Assembly: GCA_028277665.1 (NCBI GenBank)
Contig: JANQFU010000112.1
Span: 1-35,481 of the forward strand
Origin: Alphaproteobacteria bacterium
GTDB lineage: Bacteria > Pseudomonadota > Alphaproteobacteria > Micavibrionales > Micavibrionaceae
Length of the DNA: 35,481 nt
Reading direction: 5' to 3'
The notes under the pieces were generated by a model, which saw only the letters and a program-made list of their open reading frames with translations, was not told the DNA's origin and made no database searches. The position numbers were made by a program, and so were the translations under genes. Shown here one piece after another: positions 4,333-22,458 of the stretch. Each line of letters begins with the position of its first letter. Positions within the stretch are counted from its first letter, which is position 1.

Positions 4333-6405
4333 ATGGCCATATTCGCGCAAAATTCCGCCGGAACGGCAAGACAGCCGGTCTGCAAGAGACCGGTAGTGTA
4401 TGTATGTCTGTTCGCTTTGCTTCTTTCCATTGTCCCGGCACGTGATTCCGATGCTGATGATGATTCATGGGTCACGATCGATACATCCGGTTTTCAGTCC
4501 GGGATTGATGACTTCAAAACTGAATATGAAGGGGTTTTAGATAATATAGGAACGGAAGTCCAAGGATTTACGGACGGCGCTGCGGATTTTACGAACGACC
4601 TTATATCAAATATTCCCGATCCCGATACGATGATAAGCGGATTTGAAGATATCACCGGAGATCTTCCCGACATGACAGGGATTGCCAATGACATACAAGG
4701 AATTACAGAGGGTTTTGACGACACGATATCGGGGATCACGGACTCTCTTCCCGATGCCGCGGATTTCGAAGAGTTTGCAGACACGTACAACAATCTGGCC
4801 GGAGACCTGCAGGAGACGATCGATTGGGGGAAAGAGGGCGTTCAGGATGTCATGGATTATATTTCCGACAATCCGATCTCTGACGAGCTTGTTGAGCAGT
4901 ACGGAGAGTTAAAATCCCTTCTGGACGAAGGCACGACGGAAGCTCTTGCAGAAGCAAAAGAGCTTTTGGGTTCGGACACGTTCGAACAGCTCAGCGAGAT
5001 TACGGATTACCTTTCGGAACTTGACAATATTACGGCGGCACTGGGTGTGATCGGAAATCTTCCGGCGGCGCTGGAGGGCGATATTATCGCTATGTTCAGC
5101 ATGTTGCAGGATCTTGCCCAGCTTGCGGGTATGGCCGACATTCTGGATGCGTATACGGACCAGCTTCTGGAAGCCCTCGGTATCGATTTCGGAACGGGCT
5201 CTCTTTGTCCGTCCTGTCCGGCAGGCGGATGCATCGTTGATGCTCATCTTGGCGTTATTTTGAAATCCTATACCGAGCACAGCAGTACACAACGTAAATT
5301 CTCGGCGGAAGAACAAGCGTTCAAAGCATACGTGCTGACGAGCTTGTGGGCCGGAGAAGTCCTGCCCTCTTTGATGAAAATGACAATGCAGGCTGTTGTT
5401 GATGTCACATTGCAGACTTTCATGATCGGAAGCCAGATTGATGCCCGCATTCAAATCGGCCATCAGAGAAAGGTATTCAGTCATACCGCGCAGAGCAGTC
5501 TTGACTATACGCCGGACGAAGACGTCTGCACGATTGCAACATCCGTCCGGTCTCTCGCTGCGTCGGAAGACAAGGCTGAATTCGCCGTTATTCCTCTTGT
5601 GCAGGCAACCCTCTCCCGGCTCTTGATGCTGGGAGACGATCCGGCTGCGCCCGGTCCCGCGGCGGACAGAGAAAACCGTCATGCGACCTATACCGAGAAA
5701 TTTTGCAGTCCTTATGAAAATAATTCCCAGATGCGCTCCGTCTGTCCGGAAGGCGCCGGCGCCGATTCCAAATGGGATGCCGATTATGCGCGCTGGGGAA
5801 CGGCAGGAACCGTTCCCGTCGATTTCTCCGGAGAAGATGAGGAAGGAGAAGACGGAGAGGCGGTCCCGACGGCGGAAACGGCCGCCTTTGAATTTATGAA
5901 GAACATGTTCGGAGACGATCTTCCGGCACGTTTGAGCGCTGAAGATTTAAAGGATGAAACAAATCAGATTCGCTTGATCGAGGAGCGTTCCCTGATCGCG
6001 AAAAGGATGGTAGCCGCCACAAGCGGCGCGCATTATCTCGCAATGAGGAGTGCGGGTACGGAGAAATCAGCAGAATATCTTGAGCCGATATATACGGCTC
6101 TCGGCGTGTCGGAAGAGGACGCCGAAATGCGGCTCCATGGAGAAGAAGGGGATACGCCGCCGAGTTATTTTGCGCAAATGGAAACATTGACCAGAACTGT
6201 CTATCAAAACCCCGATTTTTTTACAGGTCTGACAACGTTAAGGCCGAGACTGCTGCAAAAAGAAGTGGCGATGAAAGCCATAGGCGTGATGCAGGAAATG
6301 GATCATTTCGATTGTGAGCTTCGCTCGGAAATGCTGTTTGCGCTTTTGCTGGAGATGGCGCTGATTGAGGCACAGGAAAGAATCGAAAGCGAAGAGGACG
6401 CATAG
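4333..6405 (+). CDS. Secreted Cys-motif paralogue 1, long acidic N-terminus
   Basis: I do not recognise a named family. The 690-aa protein has a signal sequence (hydrophobic core about residues 20-36). Residues about 45-285 form an acidic, mostly helical extension with short Asp/Gly/Ile-rich periods such as GFEDITGD and GFDDTISGITD. A cysteine cluster CPSCPAGGC follows at 292-300. The part shared with the next three genes starts around 335: a helix with LPSLMKMTMQ, DEDVCTIAT (C399), EKFCSPYENN (C458), a third Cys at 471, an acidic linker, and a C-terminal helical domain (551-684) with PPSYFAQMETLTR, VYQNPDFF and ELRSEMLFALLLE. C661 aligns with a Cys in paralogue 4 only. TGAGGGG lies before the ATG. 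It is the first gene of a tight four-gene operon and is probably periplasmic or surface-exposed. Confidence 0.88.
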   Translation: MAIFAQNSAGTARQPVCKRPVVYVCLFALLLSIVPARDSDADDDSWVTIDTSGFQSGIDDFKTEYEGVLDNIGTEVQGFTDGAADFTNDLISNIPDPDTMISGFEDITGDLPDMTGIANDIQGITEGFDDTISGITDSLPDAADFEEFADTYNNLAGDLQETIDWGKEGVQDVMDYISDNPISDELVEQYGELKSLLDEGTTEALAEAKELLGSDTFEQLSEITDYLSELDNITAALGVIGNLPAALEGDIIAMFSMLQDLAQLAGMADILDAYTDQLLEALGIDFGTGSLCPSCPAGGCIVDAHLGVILKSYTEHSSTQRKFSAEEQAFKAYVLTSLWAGEVLPSLMKMTMQAVVDVTLQTFMIGSQIDARIQIGHQRKVFSHTAQSSLDYTPDEDVCTIATSVRSLAASEDKAEFAVIPLVQATLSRLLMLGDDPAAPGPAADRENRHATYTEKFCSPYENNSQMRSVCPEGAGADSKWDADYARWGTAGTVPVDFSGEDEEGEDGEAVPTAETAAFEFMKNMFGDDLPARLSAEDLKDETNQIRLIEERSLIAKRMVAATSGAHYLAMRSAGTEKSAEYLEPIYTALGVSEEDAEMRLHGEEGDTPPSYFAQMETLTRTVYQNPDFFTGLTTLRPRLLQKEVAMKAIGVMQEMDHFDCELRSEMLFALLLEMALIEAQERIESEEDA

Positions 6406-6413
6406 AGAACGTC

Positions 6414-7715
6414 ATGTCGATTATTAATAGAATGCGAACAAGAAGAACAAACGGGCCTGTCCTTTCAAGACGCCGTCCGGCAAAGAAAAAATGGGGACGG
6501 CTCGCCGGTTTGACGTGTCTGGGCATTCTGGCCGGCGGGGTTCTTTTTGTCCAGTCAGCCGCTGCTTCGCCCTGCTGTACGTGTATTGCTCTTGCCGCTC
6601 TTGCAACGCGTGCCGCAATCGTGGCTTTCCATGCCGATACCCGTTCCTACGTGTCTGATGAAATGAAAAAAGAGCAGGAATGGTGGATCGATGAGGTCAT
6701 GGAAGGGCATGTCAGGCCCGCGCTTCAGAGAATGACCCGTACATTTGTAACGCTGCAAAAGCTTGTTACGGTTGATTACTACAAAATGACCGATGTTGAG
6801 AATCTGTTGGAAACGTCTCAAACATACGGATTGAAACAGGCCGAAATTCATAAAAAATTTCAGTCCTCCCAGGAGCTGTGTGAGATCGGAACGTTGGTTG
6901 GCGGGCTTGCCGCAGCCCGGGAAATTTCGCGCGGGACGACACTGTCCATGAGCGAATACGGAATCAAACGCGACTTGTTCGACGCCGGCGCGGTGTCGGC
7001 CGAAGGCCGGGATGAAGATATGGCCGCACGTCTGGAGCAGTTCAAGACAACATATTGCGATCCCCGCGCCCAGAATTTCGCTTTGGAACAGGTCTGCGGC
7101 GAGGGCGGCCCCCCCGCCCGGCGGAACCGGGACATCCATTACGCCATGATGGCCGACATTCCAAAAACGCTGGATGTTTCAGCGGTCGGGGCTGCCGATC
7201 CGGAAGGAGGGGAGGAATACCTTGAGGATCTTCAGGCGCTTGAGGTTAATCTTTTCGGAAGCGAGGTCCTTTGGCCGATTGAAGATCTGGAAGGGAATGA
7301 AAAGAAACACGAAAAACTTCTCAGCATTGCCGCCGCGCGCAGCGTGGCGCGAAACAGTTACTGGCGGCAGGTTGGTTTGAAGGCCGCCGGTCCTCCCAAC
7401 CGACGGGAATTTATGGCTGCCGTTCTCAAGGAGCTTGGCGCTGAAGACGATGCCATTAATGCCTATATGAGCAAAAATCCGAGTTTTTACGAACGTCTGG
7501 ACGTATTGGCGAAAAAATATCTTCAAAAACCTGGTTTTTATATCGGCCTGAATGACAAGCCCGGCAATCTGGTCCGTAAAAGCGCCGCTCTCGACATGAT
7601 TAAACTGATGATTCGGGGGGAACGCAAAAAGACCCGGGAAGCGTCTTCCGCCACCGCGGCAGTCTGGTTAATGACGGAACTGAATGCTGCGCAGGACCGG
7701 GTTGAAAACAAGTAA
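6414..7715 (+). CDS. Secreted Cys-motif paralogue 2, compact
   Basis: This 433-aa protein is of the same unnamed family as its neighbours and begins 8 nt after paralogue 1. An unusually long, Arg/Lys-rich leader (residues 1-27) precedes a hydrophobic segment (about 30-50) ending in SAAAS, a likely signal-peptidase site. The mature protein would start with a cysteine cluster PCCTC (54, 55, 57). Then come a helix with EVMEGHVRPALQRMTRT, the family motif HKKFQSSQELCEIGT (C156), TYCDPRAQN (C215) and a third Cys at 228. The C-terminal domain shows ARSVARNSYW, EFMAAVLKELG, NPSFYERLDVL and KPGFYIGL. It lacks the long acidic extension of paralogues 1 and 4 and the C-terminal Cys. No membrane helix is visible besides the signal. 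The function is unknown. Confidence 0.87.
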   Translation: MSIINRMRTRRTNGPVLSRRRPAKKKWGRLAGLTCLGILAGGVLFVQSAAASPCCTCIALAALATRAAIVAFHADTRSYVSDEMKKEQEWWIDEVMEGHVRPALQRMTRTFVTLQKLVTVDYYKMTDVENLLETSQTYGLKQAEIHKKFQSSQELCEIGTLVGGLAAAREISRGTTLSMSEYGIKRDLFDAGAVSAEGRDEDMAARLEQFKTTYCDPRAQNFALEQVCGEGGPPARRNRDIHYAMMADIPKTLDVSAVGAADPEGGEEYLEDLQALEVNLFGSEVLWPIEDLEGNEKKHEKLLSIAAARSVARNSYWRQVGLKAAGPPNRREFMAAVLKELGAEDDAINAYMSKNPSFYERLDVLAKKYLQKPGFYIGLNDKPGNLVRKSAALDMIKLMIRGERKKTREASSATAAVWLMTELNAAQDRVENK

Positions 7716-7753
7716 GGGCGAATTGCCCGAAGAACCGGAAGAGAGGACATATC

Positions 7754-9079
7754 ATGATAACGGCAAAAACAAGACATGAAAAAGTAAGGATCCGGGGACA
7801 CATCCGGCGTAGCGTTTTTTCCGCGACCCTTTCCGCCGTTTTGTTTGTCTCTGCATTCTTTTCCGTTCCTTCGAATTTTTCCGCACCCGGCGGCATTCGT
7901 CCTGCGTACGCGCAACTCTGCGCGGAATGTTGTGCCTGCGTGGAAGCAAGCTCATGGAATACAAGATGGCTCGTGATTTTTCCCTTGCACATCATGCTTC
8001 GTAACCATATTTCCGGCCTGTTTGAGGAACAGAAAAAATTCGTTGTCGATGAATTTTATATGGGCCATGTCGTTCCGGCCATGCAGGATATGACGCGGGA
8101 ACTTGAATCGAACGGACAAATGTTTACGGTCGATCTTGCGAAGATGATGGACGCGGACAATTTCGTGGAGGCAACCCAGGCAAAAGCGGAAATGAGAGCG
8201 GACATCCATATGGAGTTTCAGCCCTCTGACGAGCTTTGCAAAATCGGAACGCTGACCCGGGATCTTGCCGCAGCGGAAAGTAAAGCGCGTTACGCAACCT
8301 TGATGCTGGCTGAATCGTTTACCAAGCGTCAGGGCTACGAGGCCGGGAGTGTCTCGGCGGACGGGCCGGATGCGGATGTGAAAGCCAGACATCAGCAGAG
8401 GCAGACTACGTTCTGTAACCCGCATTTCAATAACGGGAGAAATCAGGACGTAGAAGGCTGTACGGAAACGGATCCGAAATACCGGGGCGCTGATGTCAAT
8501 TTTACCCAGACAATCTGGTCGCCTCTGACCATTCCGATTGAAACCCTGACATCCGGAGAGACAACCATCGAGCAAGAAGCGGTTGAAGCTTTTATCAATC
8601 ATCTGGTTCCCGTGTTGCCCGGGCAAGTCCCGGACGGAGACAGTACGGCAGGCAAAGAACGTGAAATGGACCAGCAATCCCTGTCTGCCAAATTCAGTGT
8701 TGCGACCTCTGTTCTGGCTCACCTGGCCGGGATGAAAGCATCCGGCACCGGGAACGGAGCGGAATTTCTGAGAGCCGTCTACGCCGCTATGGGTATTCCG
8801 GACGGGAATACGGAACAGCTCGGTGAAAACCCAAGCTATTATGCGATTATGGAAGTTTTGACGAGCGCTCTGCCCAAAGATCCCTCTCTTTACTTAAATC
8901 TTGGAGGATCTCCGGAGAACGCGACCCGGATGATGGTTGCCATGCAGGCGATCATGCTCATGCTCTCCCGCGACATGTATAAAACCGATTTGCAGATTTC
9001 TGCGGTTCTCGCTGTGTTGCTTGCTACTGAGCTGGATTCTCTGCAGCGCCGCTTCGTCGAAAACACTTCGGGGGCCTGA
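7754..9079 (+). CDS. Secreted Cys-motif paralogue 3, compact
   Basis: This 441-aa protein is of the same unnamed family. A basic leader and hydrophobic core (about residues 18-45) end in PAYA-Q at 53, a convincing signal-peptidase I site. The mature N-terminus carries the cysteine cluster LCAECCAC (56, 59, 60, 62). The shared elements follow in order: FYMGHVVPAMQDMTRE, IHMEFQPSDELCKIGT (C162), TFCNPHFNNG (C221), C236, DVNFTQTIWSPLTI, and the C-terminal domain with SVATSVLAHLAGM, EFLRAVYAAMGI, NPSYYAIMEVLT and LAVLLATELDSLQ. It may be the least diverged copy, since it matches the others best across each motif. It lies 38 nt after paralogue 2 and 5 nt before paralogue 4. ATTGCCCGAAGAACCGGAAG precedes the start, with GGAAGAGAGG as the likely ribosome binding site. 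Confidence 0.88.
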   Translation: MITAKTRHEKVRIRGHIRRSVFSATLSAVLFVSAFFSVPSNFSAPGGIRPAYAQLCAECCACVEASSWNTRWLVIFPLHIMLRNHISGLFEEQKKFVVDEFYMGHVVPAMQDMTRELESNGQMFTVDLAKMMDADNFVEATQAKAEMRADIHMEFQPSDELCKIGTLTRDLAAAESKARYATLMLAESFTKRQGYEAGSVSADGPDADVKARHQQRQTTFCNPHFNNGRNQDVEGCTETDPKYRGADVNFTQTIWSPLTIPIETLTSGETTIEQEAVEAFINHLVPVLPGQVPDGDSTAGKEREMDQQSLSAKFSVATSVLAHLAGMKASGTGNGAEFLRAVYAAMGIPDGNTEQLGENPSYYAIMEVLTSALPKDPSLYLNLGGSPENATRMMVAMQAIMLMLSRDMYKTDLQISAVLAVLLATELDSLQRRFVENTSGA

Positions 9080-9084
9080 TTGCA

Positions 9085-11076
9085 ATGCCGGATCGTCAAA
9101 CTACATATTGTCAGAAGATTTTGCCGGTTGCCGCGGTTGCTCTGGTTTTCGTATTTTCCGGAACAACAACGGCTCTCGCCGATGAGGATACGGGCTCGTC
9201 GCATGTCTGGGGAGAAAGTTTTGGCGCGGATATTGATGCAGCCGGAAGCGCCGTTGGCGACGCGGCGGGAGACGCCTACGATTATGTTTTCGGAAGCGAT
9301 ACATATGACGATGTGGAAGAGCTTGGGAGCGATGCCATTGGCTACACAGGAGACGTCCTCGACGGCGCGGGCGATCTGAAGGGAGAGCTTGAAGGGACAA
9401 TCAAAGACGCAAATGAGGCAATCAGTGAGACTGTTGGAGAGTTCAATGAATTATCAAACAAGACGCTGGGCGAAATTCAGGAACTGCGTGATCAGACGGT
9501 CGGTAAAATCAATGAAACATATGACAGGGTGTATGACGAAACGATCGGTGAATATGTAGATCTCTATGATTTGACAATCCGGGAATTTGAAGAGCTCTAT
9601 GACGTAACAATCGAGAGTGCCGAAGGCCTTTATGACATGACGATCGGTCAGCTTGAAATTTTCTATGATTTGACGATCGGTGCGCTGATCGACATAACGG
9701 AAGGGCTGTACGACATGACGATCGGCTCGGTTGTCGAGCTGGTCGAAGACCTGTCCGATAAAACAATCGAGACGATCGAAGATTTATTTGATGCGTTGTA
9801 TGACGGGACGATCGGGGCGGCAACTGATGCCATCGAAGATTTTTTCGAAGGGATTTATGACGAGACGATTGGAACGATCGCCGATCTTTTCGGCTTTGAT
9901 GATGATGAAGAGCTTGAGGAACTGGCGCATAAATTATGGACCGGCTCTATGAGCGACATGTCCCGGGAAGTGGCGACAAACCGCTTTATGACGGCGGCCG
10001 ATACCGCAAAGATAATCGATGCATCGGAAATGCAACGTTCCATGCTCGAAAAAAACCGTTTGCGGGCGAAATATCACCATGAGCTTCAACCCAGTGAACT
10101 GGTTTGCAGTATTGGAACGGTTATCCGGCCTGTGTCGGCAACACGGGATGGGGCGCGCGCAGCGTCAAACTCAATTCAGTCGACGGGCCTGAACCGGGAT
10201 CTCGGCTCGGTAAGCGTTTCGGAGACGGGCGAGGAAGCGATTACCGAGTCCAAAGAAATGAGAGCCCGGAGAACTCAGTATGACGAAAGATATTGCTCTC
10301 CTCATGAAGGCGGGATTAACGCAATGGAAGAACGTTGCCAGGCTGAACCGGGATCGCGGCGGAAAAATATGGACTTTTCCGCCACGATCGACGTTCCGAT
10401 GACGATTGCCGAGTCCGGTTATCTGGAATCAGAATCTTCCGATGATGTTGGATCCGGAAAAACCGATACGGATGCGCTCTTAACGAATCTTGTCGGATAT
10501 GACCTGTCCCGGCGGGCAAGCTCGACCGGCGTTAGCGAAGAAGCCGAGGCCGGAGATCCAAAGACGGAGAGCCGGACCTGGCAGCAAACACGGTCCATGA
10601 GTCTTTTGCGCGGACCTGCCCGTGACGCAATTGCGGCAATCATCGCGGAAAAAAGCGAAGGAGTTGAACAGAACGGAGAATTCATTCGTTCTGCGTTTGC
10701 GTCAATAGGAATGGGGGAAGAGGAAATCAGGGACCTCGTCGGGGAAAAACCGAGTGCTTACGCGGTCGGTGAGGTGATTTCAAAAATACTGTATCAAAAT
10801 CCGGACTTCTATGTGGCATTGGGAGAGGGCATTAACGGAGCGACGGCTGCGGGCGTTGCGATGCTCGCGGCTCAGTTGATGGAAGACCGCAACAGATACG
10901 AAGCCTGTTTGAGGACGGAAATGGTCCTTGCGGCTCTCCTTGAAGCGAAACTCCGGGGATGGCAGGAAAAACTCGATGCACGGCGCCAGACGACACAAAG
11001 AGGAACCGGCTCCGGGAACAGCCCCGACACTGACGCAGATTCCGGCTCCGGGTCTGAAGAAGAAACAGACACATAA
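9085..11076 (+). CDS. Secreted Cys-motif paralogue 4 with hendecad stalk
   Basis: This 663-aa protein is of the same unnamed family. A signal peptide ends at TTTALA-D (about residue 32). A Gly/Ala/Asp-rich stretch follows, then residues 124-271 hold eleven repeats of the type YD-x-TIG spaced by 11, 15 or 19 residues. The family core begins near 310: HHELQPSELVCSIGT (C341), RYCSPHEGG (C404), C418, MDFSATIDVPMTI, then the C-terminal domain with EFIRSAFASIGM, KPSAYAVGEVI, LYQNPDFYVALG and CLRTEMVLAALLEAKL (C608, matching C661 of paralogue 1). It lacks the N-terminal Cys cluster found in the other three. The tail (about 636-663) is Ser/Gly/Asp/Glu-rich and disordered. It is the last gene of the operon and may be a fibre or stalk subunit; that role is inference. 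Confidence 0.88.
   Translation: MPDRQTTYCQKILPVAAVALVFVFSGTTTALADEDTGSSHVWGESFGADIDAAGSAVGDAAGDAYDYVFGSDTYDDVEELGSDAIGYTGDVLDGAGDLKGELEGTIKDANEAISETVGEFNELSNKTLGEIQELRDQTVGKINETYDRVYDETIGEYVDLYDLTIREFEELYDVTIESAEGLYDMTIGQLEIFYDLTIGALIDITEGLYDMTIGSVVELVEDLSDKTIETIEDLFDALYDGTIGAATDAIEDFFEGIYDETIGTIADLFGFDDDEELEELAHKLWTGSMSDMSREVATNRFMTAADTAKIIDASEMQRSMLEKNRLRAKYHHELQPSELVCSIGTVIRPVSATRDGARAASNSIQSTGLNRDLGSVSVSETGEEAITESKEMRARRTQYDERYCSPHEGGINAMEERCQAEPGSRRKNMDFSATIDVPMTIAESGYLESESSDDVGSGKTDTDALLTNLVGYDLSRRASSTGVSEEAEAGDPKTESRTWQQTRSMSLLRGPARDAIAAIIAEKSEGVEQNGEFIRSAFASIGMGEEEIRDLVGEKPSAYAVGEVISKILYQNPDFYVALGEGINGATAAGVAMLAAQLMEDRNRYEACLRTEMVLAALLEAKLRGWQEKLDARRQTTQRGTGSGNSPDTDADSGSGSEEETDT
9454..9897 (+). 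repeat. Eleven YDxTIG hendecad/pentadecad repeats within paralogue 4
   Basis: This is a coding repeat for residues 124-271. Repeat starts fall at about residues 124, 135, 150, 161, 172, 183, 194, 209, 224, 239 and 258, giving periods of 11, 15 and 19. Typical units are YDLTIREFEEL, YDMTIGQLEIF and YDETIGEYVDL. Periods of 11 and 15 correspond to 3 and 4 helical turns, which is typical of straight or right-handed coiled coils. At DNA level the units are only partly conserved, so the array is not recent. Confidence 0.85.
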
Positions 11077-11160: not shown

Positions 11161-13584
11161 ATGTCTTTGGGTGCTATGGATTCGGCGCTGTCCGGTCTGC
11201 GGATCGCGCAGCAACAGTTAAATATCGTTTCGACGAATATCGCCAATGTCGGTACGGACGGCTACACGCGCAAGATCCTGCCTCAGTCGACCGTTGCGAT
11301 TAACGGCGAAGCCGTTGGCGTCACATCGGAAATCGTGACACGCTATGTCCGTGCCACACTTGCGCGCGAGGTCTGGACGCAGGTCAGCGTTACTTCGGGG
11401 CTTGAAGTTACGCAAAGCTACCTCGACAACATCCAGAATTTTCACGGACCGTCCGATGCCGAGGTCTCTCTATCGGCAATTATTTCCGGCCTCCGGGATT
11501 CTTTTTCCCAATTGTCGGATCTGCCGGAGGATGATTTCCTTTTGCGCGAAACGCTCAATCAGGCGCAAAGCACAGTCTCCAAGATCAACGATTTTGCCGA
11601 TCTTCTGATCGATCAGCGCAACGACACCCAGACGGATATTCAGGTCGCGGTGAACCGGGTGAATGATTTGCTCGAACAAATCGAAACCCTGAACGACGAT
11701 ATCAAGGGGAATACGGCTCTGAACAAGACGACGGCCCAGCTTGAAGACCAGAGGGATATTGCCGTCAAAAAACTCTCGGAACTGATGGAAATTACATTCT
11801 TCACGCGCGGCGACGGCCTGATGGTCATCCAGACCGCGCGGGGAGAACAACTCGTCGATGACGATGTGACGCCGCTTTATTTCAGCCCGAGCCCGATCGG
11901 GACACAATCTTCCTATCCGGAAAATGTTGCGGGAATCTGGCTTGGCGGCAATCCGGCTGAAACGGCGAATGCGTCGGATATCACGGAAACCGGCCTCGGC
12001 GGAAAAATCGGTGCGCTTCTGGATTTACGGGACGAAGTTCTGCCGCGCTATCTCGCACAGCTTGACGAATTTTCGCATAAACTCGCCACTCGTTTCGCCT
12101 CGCAAGGCCTTGAGCTGTTCACGGATCCAAGCGGAACGGTCCCGCCCGATACGGAGCCGACGCCGGATCCGCCCGGTCCGGCAACGGCCGTATCCTATGT
12201 CGGGTTTTCTACGAGCATTCAGGTCAACGACGCCGTTGTCGCCGATCCGTCCCTGATCCGGTCGGGGACGGTGACAAGCGACCGCCCGGTCCAGACCGGA
12301 TCGAACGAGGTAATTCGCCGGATCGTCGAGTTTGCCTTCGGTGATGTCGCTTATCAGGAGGCGGTTGGAACGAACGATATCCGCGCGCAGGCGACCGGTG
12401 GTGTGACATTGCAGGAATGGCTCGGGATTTACTCTACCAATCAGGTGACAGGGACGACCAGCGTCGAGCAGTACAGCGATATCGCCACGCTGTTCGCATC
12501 CGGCGGGGATATTTTTATTCCGGCCGCTCCGCCTCCGGCCGAGACGGATCAGTTCCAGTTGACGTTCGATAACTATAACGCCGCAGGATCGACGACGATC
12601 ACAATCGACCTCAGCGATGCGGCCGCCAATTATCCGATCGGAGTCGGGATTAATGACGCGCTGGACCAGATTATCAGCGAAATCAACAACCAGATTGCGC
12701 TGGCGGGGATTCCGGCGGATGTTGCGGCAAGCGCCTCCCGGAACGCTTACGGCCAGCTTGTTCTAAACAGCCGCGCCGATATCACTGTGACCGGCTCCGG
12801 GTTTGCAGCCGAGGCGATGGGAGATGACGGCCTTGAATATCTGGGTTTGAGCGAAGGGACCTATCAGGCCGAAGATCCCTATTTCGAGATCCAGATTGGA
12901 AACAAGGACCGCGTGAAAATCACAATCGAGCCCGGCGATACGGAAACGGATCTTGAGAACAAGCTGACGTGGGACACGGCGAGCGGGACCGGCGTTCCGG
13001 GATTGTATGTTGATATCGATGCGTCCGGGAACCTGACATTAAGGCCCGGAAACGACGACAGCAACGGCGGGCCGGTTTTCGGGGGCGATATGAAACTCTT
13101 TGCCGGAACGATCGATGCCGACGGGACGGGCGGAATCGGCGTCCCGGCCGGTGTGAATATCATCTCGACCCTGTTCGGCAGTTATACGGCCGGTCCGCCG
13201 CTTCAGGAGTCTTCTCCGGTAAACGATGTGACCTACGGGTCTCTGGAAAGCTCGGTTGCCGGAGCAGGAACGGTCCAGTTCCGCAGTGAATATCTCGGGC
13301 CGAATGCAACGGTCAGTACGCAAATTACGGGTGCAACAAATTTGATCGATTACGCTCAGCGGATTATCGCCCAGCATGCCGAGGAAGCAACCCAGAGGAC
13401 CGAGCAATACAAGGACGAACAGACCTATCTCGAACTGGTCGAGCGTCAGCTTGCCGATGAGTCAGGAGTCAATATTGATGAAGAGCTTTCGCACATGATC
13501 GTGATTCAGACGGCCTATAGCGCCGCCGCACGGGTTCTGACCGTTGTTGATGAAATGTTCGCACAATTGATTGAAGCTGTATAA
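11161..13584 (+). CDS. flgK: Flagellar hook-associated protein 1, FlgK
   Basis: This is the hook-filament junction protein, secreted through the flagellar type III system without a signal peptide. The N-terminus has the flagellar rod/hook motif LRIAQQQLNIVSTNIANVGT around residues 13-32, followed by DGYTRK. The C-terminus has SGVNIDEELSHMIVIQTAYS and ARVLTVVDEMFAQLIEAV, the matching amphipathic helix of FlgK. At 807 aa it is much longer than E. coli FlgK (about 547 aa). The extra length sits in the surface-exposed middle, including a Pro/Thr linker (VPPDTEPTPDPPGP, about residues 327-340) and an Asp/Thr/Gly-rich beta-type region around 440-700. ACAAGGTAAGAG precedes the ATG. It has its own sigma-54 promoter and is followed by flgL. 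Confidence 0.93.
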   Translation: MSLGAMDSALSGLRIAQQQLNIVSTNIANVGTDGYTRKILPQSTVAINGEAVGVTSEIVTRYVRATLAREVWTQVSVTSGLEVTQSYLDNIQNFHGPSDAEVSLSAIISGLRDSFSQLSDLPEDDFLLRETLNQAQSTVSKINDFADLLIDQRNDTQTDIQVAVNRVNDLLEQIETLNDDIKGNTALNKTTAQLEDQRDIAVKKLSELMEITFFTRGDGLMVIQTARGEQLVDDDVTPLYFSPSPIGTQSSYPENVAGIWLGGNPAETANASDITETGLGGKIGALLDLRDEVLPRYLAQLDEFSHKLATRFASQGLELFTDPSGTVPPDTEPTPDPPGPATAVSYVGFSTSIQVNDAVVADPSLIRSGTVTSDRPVQTGSNEVIRRIVEFAFGDVAYQEAVGTNDIRAQATGGVTLQEWLGIYSTNQVTGTTSVEQYSDIATLFASGGDIFIPAAPPPAETDQFQLTFDNYNAAGSTTITIDLSDAAANYPIGVGINDALDQIISEINNQIALAGIPADVAASASRNAYGQLVLNSRADITVTGSGFAAEAMGDDGLEYLGLSEGTYQAEDPYFEIQIGNKDRVKITIEPGDTETDLENKLTWDTASGTGVPGLYVDIDASGNLTLRPGNDDSNGGPVFGGDMKLFAGTIDADGTGGIGVPAGVNIISTLFGSYTAGPPLQESSPVNDVTYGSLESSVAGAGTVQFRSEYLGPNATVSTQITGATNLIDYAQRIIAQHAEEATQRTEQYKDEQTYLELVERQLADESGVNIDEELSHMIVIQTAYSAAARVLTVVDEMFAQLIEAV

Positions 13585-18868: not shown

Positions 18869-20176
18869 CCACGGCTCGGAATCCATGGTTAACGCGGTTT
18901 AATTTTCAGGATGCTCAAGAGGATAGAAACATCCCAGCCTGCTGATTTTCTTCGTGTTTTTACGCTTCCCTTCCCCTGATCCCGGCGGACAAGGTCCAGT
19001 GCAAACCGCCTGACGACAGCCATATTTTTGGCTCCGCTCCCGCTCCGGTAGCGCGAATAATCGTCTTTGAACGCGACATCCAGAAGCCAGTGCATGCTTT
19101 CCACGCCCCAATGTCCTCGGCTGCCCGCCGCAATCCTCTCAATATCAGGAGCCAATGAGCAAATATAATATCGTGTATCTATAGTACACTTGTTTTTATA
19201 TTCTGTCCTATTCACAACTTTCACTATGGACTTTATGTGCGAGAAGCGCATTGCGCCCGGATAAGACTTTGAGCCGCATAGCCATTCCACCTCTCCGGAG
19301 ACAATGTATTCCCGGCCTTCAATTCGTCCATGCCCCTTCTCAAGGGTCGTTTTCCGGATCAGTCGCTCTTCCGGTGCCGTCCTGAAATAATCGGCAATTT
19401 CCTTTTCCAGATTCCTTTGGTTGCCTTTGACCATAAGGAGAAAATCGGCTCCGTGAGAGACAATCCGCTCGGCGATTTCAACCTGACAACCCATGGCGTC
19501 GATGGTCACCAGAGAGCCCTTTAATTGCTTCTTTTCCGCCAGCTCATCGAGGAGTTCCGGTATGGCTGTAATCTCGTTCGTTTTCTCTGGAACGCCAATC
19601 TGAGCAAGGACCAGACGTGCATTTGTTGCATACGCACTGAGCGTGTGAAGGGGCTTGATGCCCTTCGCCTTGTCGTGTGTCCGTCGGGATGTTTTTCCAT
19701 CTATGGCGATATGATCATGTGCGTCCGGCCACAGGTCTGCGGTCCAGTCATCAAAGCACCGGGCAAACAGGGCGGGAGGAACACGGTTTACCAGAGCGCG
19801 TATCCATCTGGCGCAAGGAATGCCATTTTCATATGCAGAAAATTGACGCAGAAAAGGAAGATTATGCTCTCCCCATGCGACAATATCGTCGAAGTCATCA
19901 CAAGAAGAAATCGTTGCGCATGTAAGTAAAAACAATATTTCGTTAAGTGGAAACATGACCCGGTACGGATCGCGCTGATCGTCAATCTCTGAAAAATGGC
20001 GTAAAAGAAGGGCTACGCGATCTTTGACTAACTCCTCATCGCTGGGCTCCGGGAAAAGTAATTCTATGTTGGATGTCATGGGGGCTCTCTGTTGGGGATG
20101 GCGAATCACCCTCAAAGAGAATCACATCTCAAATAGCAAGGCAAAAGTTTCGTTAACCATGACTTCCGAGCCGTGG
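18869..20176. mobile_element. ISAs1-family insertion sequence, about 1308 bp
   Basis: The ends at 18869-18894 and 20151-20176 are inverted repeats of 26 nt with two mismatches, beginning CCACGGCTCGGAA. They enclose one transposase gene. The transposase stop codon (18889-18891) lies inside the left repeat. The flanks (TGATTCGC on the left, AACAAATA on the right) show no 8-10 bp target duplication. This suggests either a deletion or recombination next to one end, or ends placed slightly wrongly. Confidence 0.88.
18889..20079 (-). CDS. ISAs1-family transposase (DDE)
   Basis: This is an intact transposase of 396 aa from the ATG at 20079. A TTG-started extension to 20115 is possible but has no support. 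The N-terminal DDE_Tnp_1-associated domain contains FSEIDDQRDP and LLTCATISSCDDFDDIVAWG. The catalytic RNase H-like domain has HIAIDGKTSRRT (first Asp about 127), LVTIDAMGCQ (second Asp about 194) and RGHWGVESMHWLLDVAF (Glu about 327), the order and spacing of ISAs1/H-repeat transposases. No frameshift or stop is seen, so the element may still move. Confidence 0.93.
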   Translation of the reverse strand: MTSNIELLFPEPSDEELVKDRVALLLRHFSEIDDQRDPYRVMFPLNEILFLLTCATISSCDDFDDIVAWGEHNLPFLRQFSAYENGIPCARWIRALVNRVPPALFARCFDDWTADLWPDAHDHIAIDGKTSRRTHDKAKGIKPLHTLSAYATNARLVLAQIGVPEKTNEITAIPELLDELAEKKQLKGSLVTIDAMGCQVEIAERIVSHGADFLLMVKGNQRNLEKEIADYFRTAPEERLIRKTTLEKGHGRIEGREYIVSGEVEWLCGSKSYPGAMRFSHIKSIVKVVNRTEYKNKCTIDTRYYICSLAPDIERIAAGSRGHWGVESMHWLLDVAFKDDYSRYRSGSGAKNMAVVRRFALDLVRRDQGKGSVKTRRKSAGWDVSILLSILKIKPR

Positions 20177-21111: not shown

Positions 21112-22458
21112 TTATTCTTTCTGTCCGCCCAAAGTAAACAAGCGGAAAGCCCCCTCGTCAAAACTTGCCCCTTCCGTCTGAGCCTCATCCAGAATGGTTT
21201 TCTCGAGTTTCGCCCCTCTAAAATCGGCCTCGCGGAGATCACAGCCCTGCAGATTGGCATAGGACAAATCTGCGCCAGACAGAATGGCGCTCTTGAAATT
21301 GGCGCCGGACAAATCCGCATAACGGAAATTCGCGCCCTCAAGGTTGCAGGGATTAAAACGTTTCACGCCGCTGCCGCCACCGCCGAACATCAAAGCCGAG
21401 AAATTCGTGCGCCGCAGGCGGGCATGGGCAAACATGGCCCCTTTGAAACTGGAGCCGCGCAAATCGGCCTCTTCCATATCGCAGCTCCGGAAATCCGCCT
21501 GATCCAGAAGCGCGCTTTGCAAATGAACCTGGTACAGATTCATGCCGAAGAAACGCCCGCGCACGGCCTTAATGGCTGTCAATTGCTCTTGCTTCAAAGA
21601 CTTGAGAGGACGAAGGTCAAAACCGCTCAGATCAAGTTGCCCTCCCTCTTTTCCTGCTGTCGTTACCCAGAGCCGATGCTCCTCAATCATCTGCGCCAAA
21701 GGATTTGTCAGCTCCATCACGGAGGTGCCGATATTCTCGTCCGTCACGGCGCCGGTCAGATCCGCGTCCAGTCCCCGCAATTCATTGACGTCGACATCCG
21801 TCAGAATCGCCGAGGTCAGATCCGCCCCTTTCAGTTTGCAATCCGTGATTTCTGCACCGGACAGGTCCGCTCCTTCGAGACGCGCGCCGGACAGGTCCGC
21901 CCGGCTGATATTGACGCCCGCCATAATCGCATCGGAAAAATCCGCCCGGTTTGCAAGCGAACCCGCCAGGCGTGCCCCCGACAGATTGGCTCCCCGGAAA
22001 CAGGCGCTTTGACCCGAATCATATTCTCCATCCGTAGAGAACCCGCCGACTCTCAAATCCGCCGAGTCCAGATTGGCCTCTTCAAGACTGGCGCATTCAA
22101 TACGGGCGCCTCGCATATCCGCCCGAACGAAGCTTGTCCGGTTCAGGTTCGCATTTTGTAAATTGCAAGCGTATAAAACAGATTCCTGAAAATTCGCCTC
22201 ACTCAGATCCATGCCTTCCATGTTACAACCGGTAAAATCAGCCTGACGCATATCCTGCCCGGCTAAAGACAAGCCCGACAAATCCGTTTTACGAAGCACG
22301 GCACGCCGTCCGCCAAGGCGCCCTTCCATATAACGTTCATGCAAACGAACGAGGGCATTCAACTGGTCTTGTGAAATCCGTTCAAGGCCCTCGCGTCCGT
22401 CCAGAGACGGAGACGATGAGGAAGATTGCGGAGGGAGTGTTGTTTTATCTATTGGCAT
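21112..22458 (-). CDS. Pentapeptide-repeat protein
   Basis: This 448-aa protein has two arrays of A(D/N)LXX pentapeptides, which fold as right-handed quadrilateral beta-helices. The first runs from about residue 58 to 235 (TDLSGLSLAGQDMRQADFTG, later SRADLSGARLEGADLSGAEI). A non-repeat helical insert follows at about 236-310, containing NPLAQMIEEHRLWV. The second array runs from about 315 to 435 (LQSALLDQADFRSCDMEEAD, later LEGANFRYADLSGANF). The N-terminus (1-30) is Ser/Pro-rich with no signal peptide. The biochemical role is unknown; DNA-gyrase mimicry is known for some members but nothing specific points to it here, despite gyrB being nearby. It lies 8 nt after the TlpA-like gene and is clearly in one operon with it. 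Confidence 0.9.
   Translation of the reverse strand: MPIDKTTLPPQSSSSSPSLDGREGLERISQDQLNALVRLHERYMEGRLGGRRAVLRKTDLSGLSLAGQDMRQADFTGCNMEGMDLSEANFQESVLYACNLQNANLNRTSFVRADMRGARIECASLEEANLDSADLRVGGFSTDGEYDSGQSACFRGANLSGARLAGSLANRADFSDAIMAGVNISRADLSGARLEGADLSGAEITDCKLKGADLTSAILTDVDVNELRGLDADLTGAVTDENIGTSVMELTNPLAQMIEEHRLWVTTAGKEGGQLDLSGFDLRPLKSLKQEQLTAIKAVRGRFFGMNLYQVHLQSALLDQADFRSCDMEEADLRGSSFKGAMFAHARLRRTNFSALMFGGGGSGVKRFNPCNLEGANFRYADLSGANFKSAILSGADLSYANLQGCDLREADFRGAKLEKTILDEAQTEGASFDEGAFRLFTLGGQKE

Follow-up and report, generated by a model that had tools for sequence, protein, structure and literature searches.

The closest described counterparts of the proteins considered here belong to the Dot/Icm type IVB secretion system (T4BSS) of Legionella. 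According to two reviews (PMC12981334, PMC12857230), DotA and IcmX assemble into a pentameric protochannel, which rearranges to give a trans-envelope conduit, and IcmX is placed in the VirB5 class, a placement through which it can be likened to the pilus-tip or stalk protein of T4ASSs. One review (PMC12981334/PMC12857230) describes a 15-nm extension upon activation and treats the protein that touches the host membrane as unknown. A survey reports protein-secreting T4BSSs in seven Micavibrionales (PMC9418006), so that the Micavibrionales T4BSS is itself already published, and bacterial killing by a T4BSS is shown for Pseudomonas putida in a further study (PMC9519443).

Here we describe a locus on a 35,481-nucleotide stretch of Micavibrionaceae DNA (contig JANQFU010000112.1 of assembly GCA_028277665.1; hereafter the window). 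Micavibrio and its kin are bacterial predators, and little is known about how epibiotic predators of this kind draw on their prey. In our search of the open-access literature, neither a multiplication of IcmX or DotA in Micavibrionales nor a rod fused to IcmX turned up.

An array of four paralogues with a shared three-cysteine domain

Four genes, A to D, lie in tandem on one strand of the window (4333-11076), separated by gaps of 5 to 38 bases and with gene D last (Table 1). Their products have in common a domain of ~350 residues with three cysteines. A Pfam and NCBIfam scan of the four proteins gave no credible match, and neither collection yielded a model for this domain.

Table 1. Features of the array and of other genes in the window; positions are nucleotides of the window and residues are those of gene D.
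Feature	Position	Strand	Basis
Gene A, paralogue, 690 aa; acidic N-terminal extension, heptad-like period 3.49	4333..6405	+	Family search, periodicity
Gene B, paralogue, 433 aa	6414..7715	+	Family search
Gene C, paralogue, 441 aa; cleanest domain model, pLDDT 85	7754..9079	+	Family search, predicted structure
Gene D, IcmX-like protein with hendecad rod, 663 aa	9085..11076	+	Family-profile match, residues 258-633
Putative Sec-type signal peptide of gene D (...TTTALA/DE)	9085..9183	+	By eye from sequence
Predicted single helix, residues 95-239	9367..9801	+	AlphaFold2
Eleven YDxTIG units, 11/15/19-residue spacing, residues 124-271	9454..9897	+	Pattern and periodicity
C-terminal three-Cys helical domain, IcmX-like fold, residues 274-641	9904..11007	+	Predicted structure and fold match
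Cys341 of three-Cys signature	10105..10107	+	Pattern
Cys404 of three-Cys signature	10294..10296	+	Pattern
Cys418 of three-Cys signature	10336..10338	+	Pattern
flgK, conserved 3' neighbour of array	11161..13584	+	TIGR02492, 251 bits
ISAs1-family transposase	18889..20115	-	NF033564, 342 bits
448-aa protein, many pentapeptide-like A(D/N)LxxA repeats	21112..22458	-	By eye

Family matches were found in 34 of 58 genomes by single-sequence search and in 49 of the 58 with a profile built from 31 members. Within the window's own family the array proteins occur in 34 of 37 genomes (own included); each of these gives 2 to 6 matches, and a single gene sometimes accounts for two of them. Copy numbers are lower in sister lineages. 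The further loci that we collected from named records come from Micavibrio, Alphaproteobacteria or Pseudomonadota MAGs, with one contig labelled Micavibrionaceae. One of these 66 contigs (L103), of 3.8 kb and carrying array genes, is titled as a Verrucomicrobia MAG, which is probably a binning error.

A tree of 118 domains places 23 of the 29 'last' array genes in one supported clade. Gene D of the window falls on a long branch in the free trees, grouped with the window's other copies or close to them. When it was constrained to the last-gene clade the grouping was not rejected (p-AU 0.78, in a comparison using 18 of 35 clusters), and the tree with gene D held there scores 20 log units better than the free tree. 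The best reading is that the last array genes represent an ancient paralogue type of their own, with an N-terminal extension that differs between lineages.

The N-terminal rod of gene D

The first-pass annotation had described eleven YDxTIG units in gene D, spaced 11, 15 or 19 residues apart and never 7 or 14. This pattern was reproduced exactly within 9454-9897, and a twelfth unit of the same type (T116) lies just upstream. With the threonine of T[IVL][GER] taken as the register residue, and one additional, out-of-register match at 230 left out, the units are at positions 116, 127, 138, 153, 164, 175, 186, 197, 212, 227, 242 and 261, and are separated by 11, 11, 15, 11, 11, 11, 11, 15, 15, 15 and 19 residues. 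The exact form YDxTI is present in eight copies in residues 120-275, compared with at most two in any of 20,000 shuffles.

A periodicity analysis with 11- and 15-residue periods, as the annotation had suggested, placed both the self-identity and the hydrophobic periods of this region far above shuffled sequences. The self-identity z-scores were 8.0 at lag 11, 6.1 at lag 15, 6.3 at lag 26 and 6.4 at lag 37. Hydrophobic power was highest at a period of 3.71 residues (15.6, where the best of 1,000 shuffles reached 10.6) and was weak at 3.5 (0.23) and 3.6 (1.31). The measured period lies between 11/3 and 15/4, within the 3.67-3.8 residues per turn that had been proposed for the hydrophobic face. 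The region has a net charge of -32 over 148 residues and is free of proline. At the DNA level, TRF detected no more than 2.5 copies of a 33-bp unit with 71% matches; the rod is therefore no recent slippage array. Eleven-residue repeats are also known from membrane-binding proteins, α-synuclein being an example; a membrane-binding reading of the rod's repeats was set aside because the rod is so strongly acidic.

The AlphaFold2 model of gene D, run as a monomer with 109 family rows in the alignment, has one 145-residue helix (residues 95-239) followed by helices at 243-269 and 274-334. As the other alignment rows cover the shared domain only, the rod part of the model comes close to a prediction from one sequence alone. 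Block means of pLDDT were 79-88 for residues 101-150, 43-71 for 151-220 and 71-77 for 221-290, with the lowest values (43-58) in residues 171-220. No confidently disordered or β structure was predicted in the rod. If the 145 residues form one helix, its length would be ~21.8 nm; the suggested rod of ~20 nm agrees with the predicted helix in length, with the reservation that the confidence of the model is low in mid-helix. The globular cysteine domain to which the rod had been said to be joined is also present, with C341, C404 and C418 in a predicted helical domain where pLDDT is mostly ~90. The sequence supports a rod that is helical and has 11/15-residue periodicity.

Among the 58 genomes searched, the YDxTIG rod was absent from all but its own. 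This restriction, the low pLDDT of residues 171-220 and the high net charge would suit a rod that is not bundled at all, namely an acidic helix, solitary or loosely ordered, that serves as a spacer of neutral sequence and whose repeats derive from old duplication. We consider such a spacer rather unlikely, because the hydrophobic face is kept at its 3.71-residue period over ~150 proline-free residues, changes in length of 4 residues preserve this face, and the pattern has been retained while the DNA units diverged.

The predicted fold of the shared domain best matches the DotA-IcmX protochannel

For the gene C and gene D models alike, the first match in fold searches over 350,542 chains (174,310 entries) was 9ngy_AP1, a chain of the Legionella DotA-IcmX protochannel from an in situ structure. 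For gene C, Foldseek gave a probability of 1.00 (E 1.5e-3) and VIA a Z-score of 12.8 over 261 residues, with the next row at 6.0. For gene D, the corresponding values were 0.99 (E 0.14) and 14.2 over 252 residues, with the next row at 7.7. These figures are to be read with the caution that helical models can reach a best VIA Z of ~14 without a clear relative and that the Foldseek E-values are modest. A chance match is nevertheless unlikely, since the first of 174,310 entries is part of the machine whose genes adjoin this family. HMMER searches of PDB sequences with the family profiles gave chance matches only, as they did with TraW, and the fold match thus rests on structure. We infer that chain AP1 is IcmX rather than DotA, because its 417 residues, numbered up to 458, match the size that we take IcmX to have.

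The likeness to IcmX therefore consists of the best fold match of two models, the presumed export of the proteins and the dot-gene neighbours of the family in relatives. The differences are that the array proteins are only 8-9% identical to IcmX in the VIA alignments, that Legionella has one copy where the array family has 2-6 paralogues, and that N-terminal rods, hydrolase and Ig-like modules are found in the array proteins, none of which we found described for IcmX.

The gene D rod shares the 11/3 and 15/4 periods and the hydrophobic face with YadA and tetrabrachion, whose stalks are right-handed coiled coils of 11- and 15-residue repeats. Unlike those stalks, it sits on what appears to be a helical secretion-channel domain without a β-barrel anchor. 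The C-terminal β-barrel anchor of a trimeric autotransporter stalk is likewise missing, the C-terminal domain of gene D being predicted as helical. The first-pass annotation had interpreted the protein as an element of a rod or fibre and had likened its coiled coil to known surface stalks. The helical 11/15 rod of that interpretation stands, whereas a free surface fibre is less likely than an extension of a secretion channel, because the cysteine domain of gene D resembles IcmX of the T4BSS.

A cysteine signature shared with TraW-type proteins

The pattern C-x56-60-[YFW]C-x10-14-C was found in 207 of 310 distinct family ORFs and in 6 of 8 TraW-type proteins from IncI and related plasmids. Its background was low, with one occurrence in 414 other ORFs of the same loci and none in 310 shuffled proteins. 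A looser three-cysteine pattern was present in 117 of 133 members and in 9 of 183 other ORFs. The family's signature matches the spacing of IncI TraW, C-59-YC-14-C; we take TraW of the IncI plasmids to correspond to IcmX.

Across the 58 genomes the TraW HMM (NF033888) scores best within one of the array genes of G021 (E 1.5e-6), and its next two matches, in G057 (1.6e-5) and G051 (1.1e-4), overlap family-profile matches. None of the 58 genomes reached the 100-bit cut-off of this equivalog, and the window's own genome had no match to the model at E <= 1. Alignment of the family and TraW profiles with hhalign gave probabilities of 2.6% and 1.1%, the first alignment pairing the three cysteines. 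As the cut-off was not reached and the hhalign scores are insignificant, we call the proteins IcmX-like and not TraW equivalogs.

Gene neighbourhood and DotA copy number

Neighbouring genes in relatives were named by curated models for DotG, DotH, DotI, DotB, DotC (Pfam T4SS_TraI), DotD and DotA. In the 58-genome set, dotI, H, G, B, C or D is near the array in 26 of 35 loci, flgK/flgL in 23, and one or the other in 30; for the named-record loci, a set that overlaps the first in part, the figures are 57, 53 and 61 of 66. In the window itself flgK/flgL lie 3' of the array and there are no dot genes, which are on other contigs of the same genome (G000): dotI/H/G on C10, dotB/C/D on C85 and a VirB4-class ATPase on C64.

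The proximity of flagellar genes, which in the window are the 3' neighbours with no dot gene near, raises the question of whether the array encodes parts of a surface or flagellum-associated filament, with the rod as an adhesive stalk and the dot-gene neighbours as incidental. A stalk would indeed need a helical rod. Such a filament is distinctly improbable, however, because the DotA-IcmX channel tops both fold searches while flagellar proteins come far below, level with unrelated helical proteins, because the TraW-type cysteine signature is present, and because the array-type gene of one sister-family genome (G047), present there as a single copy, abuts dotI on one side.

This G047 gene encodes an IcmX-like protein of 427 residues, lies between dotI and flgK and has cysteine spacings of 59 and 14; its domain spans residues 41-412, leaving no room for a long N-terminal module. 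In G043, of the same sister family (f7), no array gene is beside dotI. Of the DotH-positive genomes of f7 (G043, G047, G049, G052 and G055), a clear array gene occurs in one, a weak match (E 4e-10, with no array gene adjoining its dotI) in another, and neither in the remaining three.

DotA is present in 55 of the 58 genomes. The window's own genome has three tandem DotA paralogues of 947, 922 and 920 aa (L150, G000:C78:3992-12431), and among the matches listed three copies are frequent in the window's family, as in G000, G021, G009, G013 and G035. The sister-family genomes G047, G037 and G049 have one DotA each among the matches listed, and G023 and G036, from the window's family, have none among them. 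We count the single IcmX-like gene of G047 in the dotI/flgK slot, together with its one DotA, as polarity evidence for amplification. Against tight linkage, G026 has DotH and DotA without the array, and G028 and G031 lack both the array and DotH and have kept DotA. As the array and dotH adjoin in most relatives, a single loss or gap would suffice for the latter double absence.

Other features of the T4BSS genes were noted. Most of the 58 genomes encode a second, weaker DotI/IcmL-domain protein besides the strong DotI, on another contig or far away. The T4BSS block of several relatives contains, near the VirB4-class ATPase, a small protein that looks CxxC/HNH-like by eye (L133:5474-6160, L035:18274-18951) and could act in assembly or as an effector. 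In L133 the block also holds a TraQ-like protein (6565-7641; NF033883, 45 bits, below the 80-bit cut-off) beside a small two-helix protein that is pilin-like by eye.

N-terminal modules across relatives

At least 180 residues precede the domain in 79 of the 310 distinct family ORFs. Several of these extensions looked M23-like or transglycosylase-like by eye, but among 81 extensions of at least 150 residues Pfam confirmed just one Phage_lysozyme (40.8 bits) and one M23, with one B5 in addition. A DWAG-like pattern, Ig-like in appearance by eye, was present in 28 extensions. Repetitive extensions also occur elsewhere, for example with 7-residue units in L082. The family member at L034:4134-6746 (minus strand) has a 480-residue extension in which a 13-residue unit recurs (z 9.1 at lag 13), perhaps as a helical solenoid. 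The N-terminal modules thus vary by lineage and include rods, lysozyme, M23 and, as judged by eye, Ig-like domains.

Modules that change from lineage to lineage, among them a lysozyme and an M23 domain suited to attack on cell walls, would also be expected if the array proteins were T4BSS substrates whose modules, rods included, are released or injected into prey and whose IcmX-derived domain serves for export. A shortened form of IcmX is itself found in the supernatant, according to a review (PMC12981334). We regard substrates of this kind as improbable, because the position by dotI/dotH/dotG and the high copy number in parallel with DotA suit a structural part, and because the protein that occupies this slot as a single copy in G047 has no long module.

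Discussion

Our preferred reading, to which we give a probability of roughly 60%, is that the array encodes an amplified and probably heteromeric IcmX-like protochannel, the last-encoded subunit of which bears a lineage-specific rod. The C-terminal domain that the four proteins share would sit stacked on the ring of DotA, a VirB6-class protein, as the periplasmic part of the protochannel. In the window's own genome both partners are amplified, with four IcmX-like and three tandem DotA genes, which makes a heteromeric channel, or alternative versions of it, probable. Multiplied VirB6 genes are known from the Rickettsiales, to which the tandem amplification of DotA can be likened; unlike in the Rickettsiales, the VirB5-class partner is multiplied here too.

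The N-terminal module of the last gene may form or decorate the distal tip of this channel. In gene D, the acidic, proline-free helix of ~22 nm would most likely be bundled with its neighbours, in a straight or right-handed arrangement, and might lengthen the channel in the direction of the outer membrane and of the prey cell. A helical bundle of 22 nm would be of the right order of length for bridging to prey.

A more specific proposal is offered tentatively, as a possibility that we hold with low confidence. Predators of the Micavibrio family might build a heteromeric protochannel from three DotA and several IcmX-like proteins, with a distal subunit whose interchangeable N-terminal tip bridges the distance to the prey and determines reach or prey specificity. 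The tip would be a right-handed bundle of ~22 nm in the present genome, and a cell-wall hydrolase or Ig-like domain in relatives. If our preferred reading is right, evolution has multiplied the gatekeeper channel of this T4BSS and equipped it with changeable tips, and the question of what reaches the recipient cell would become testable through deletions of single genes of the array.
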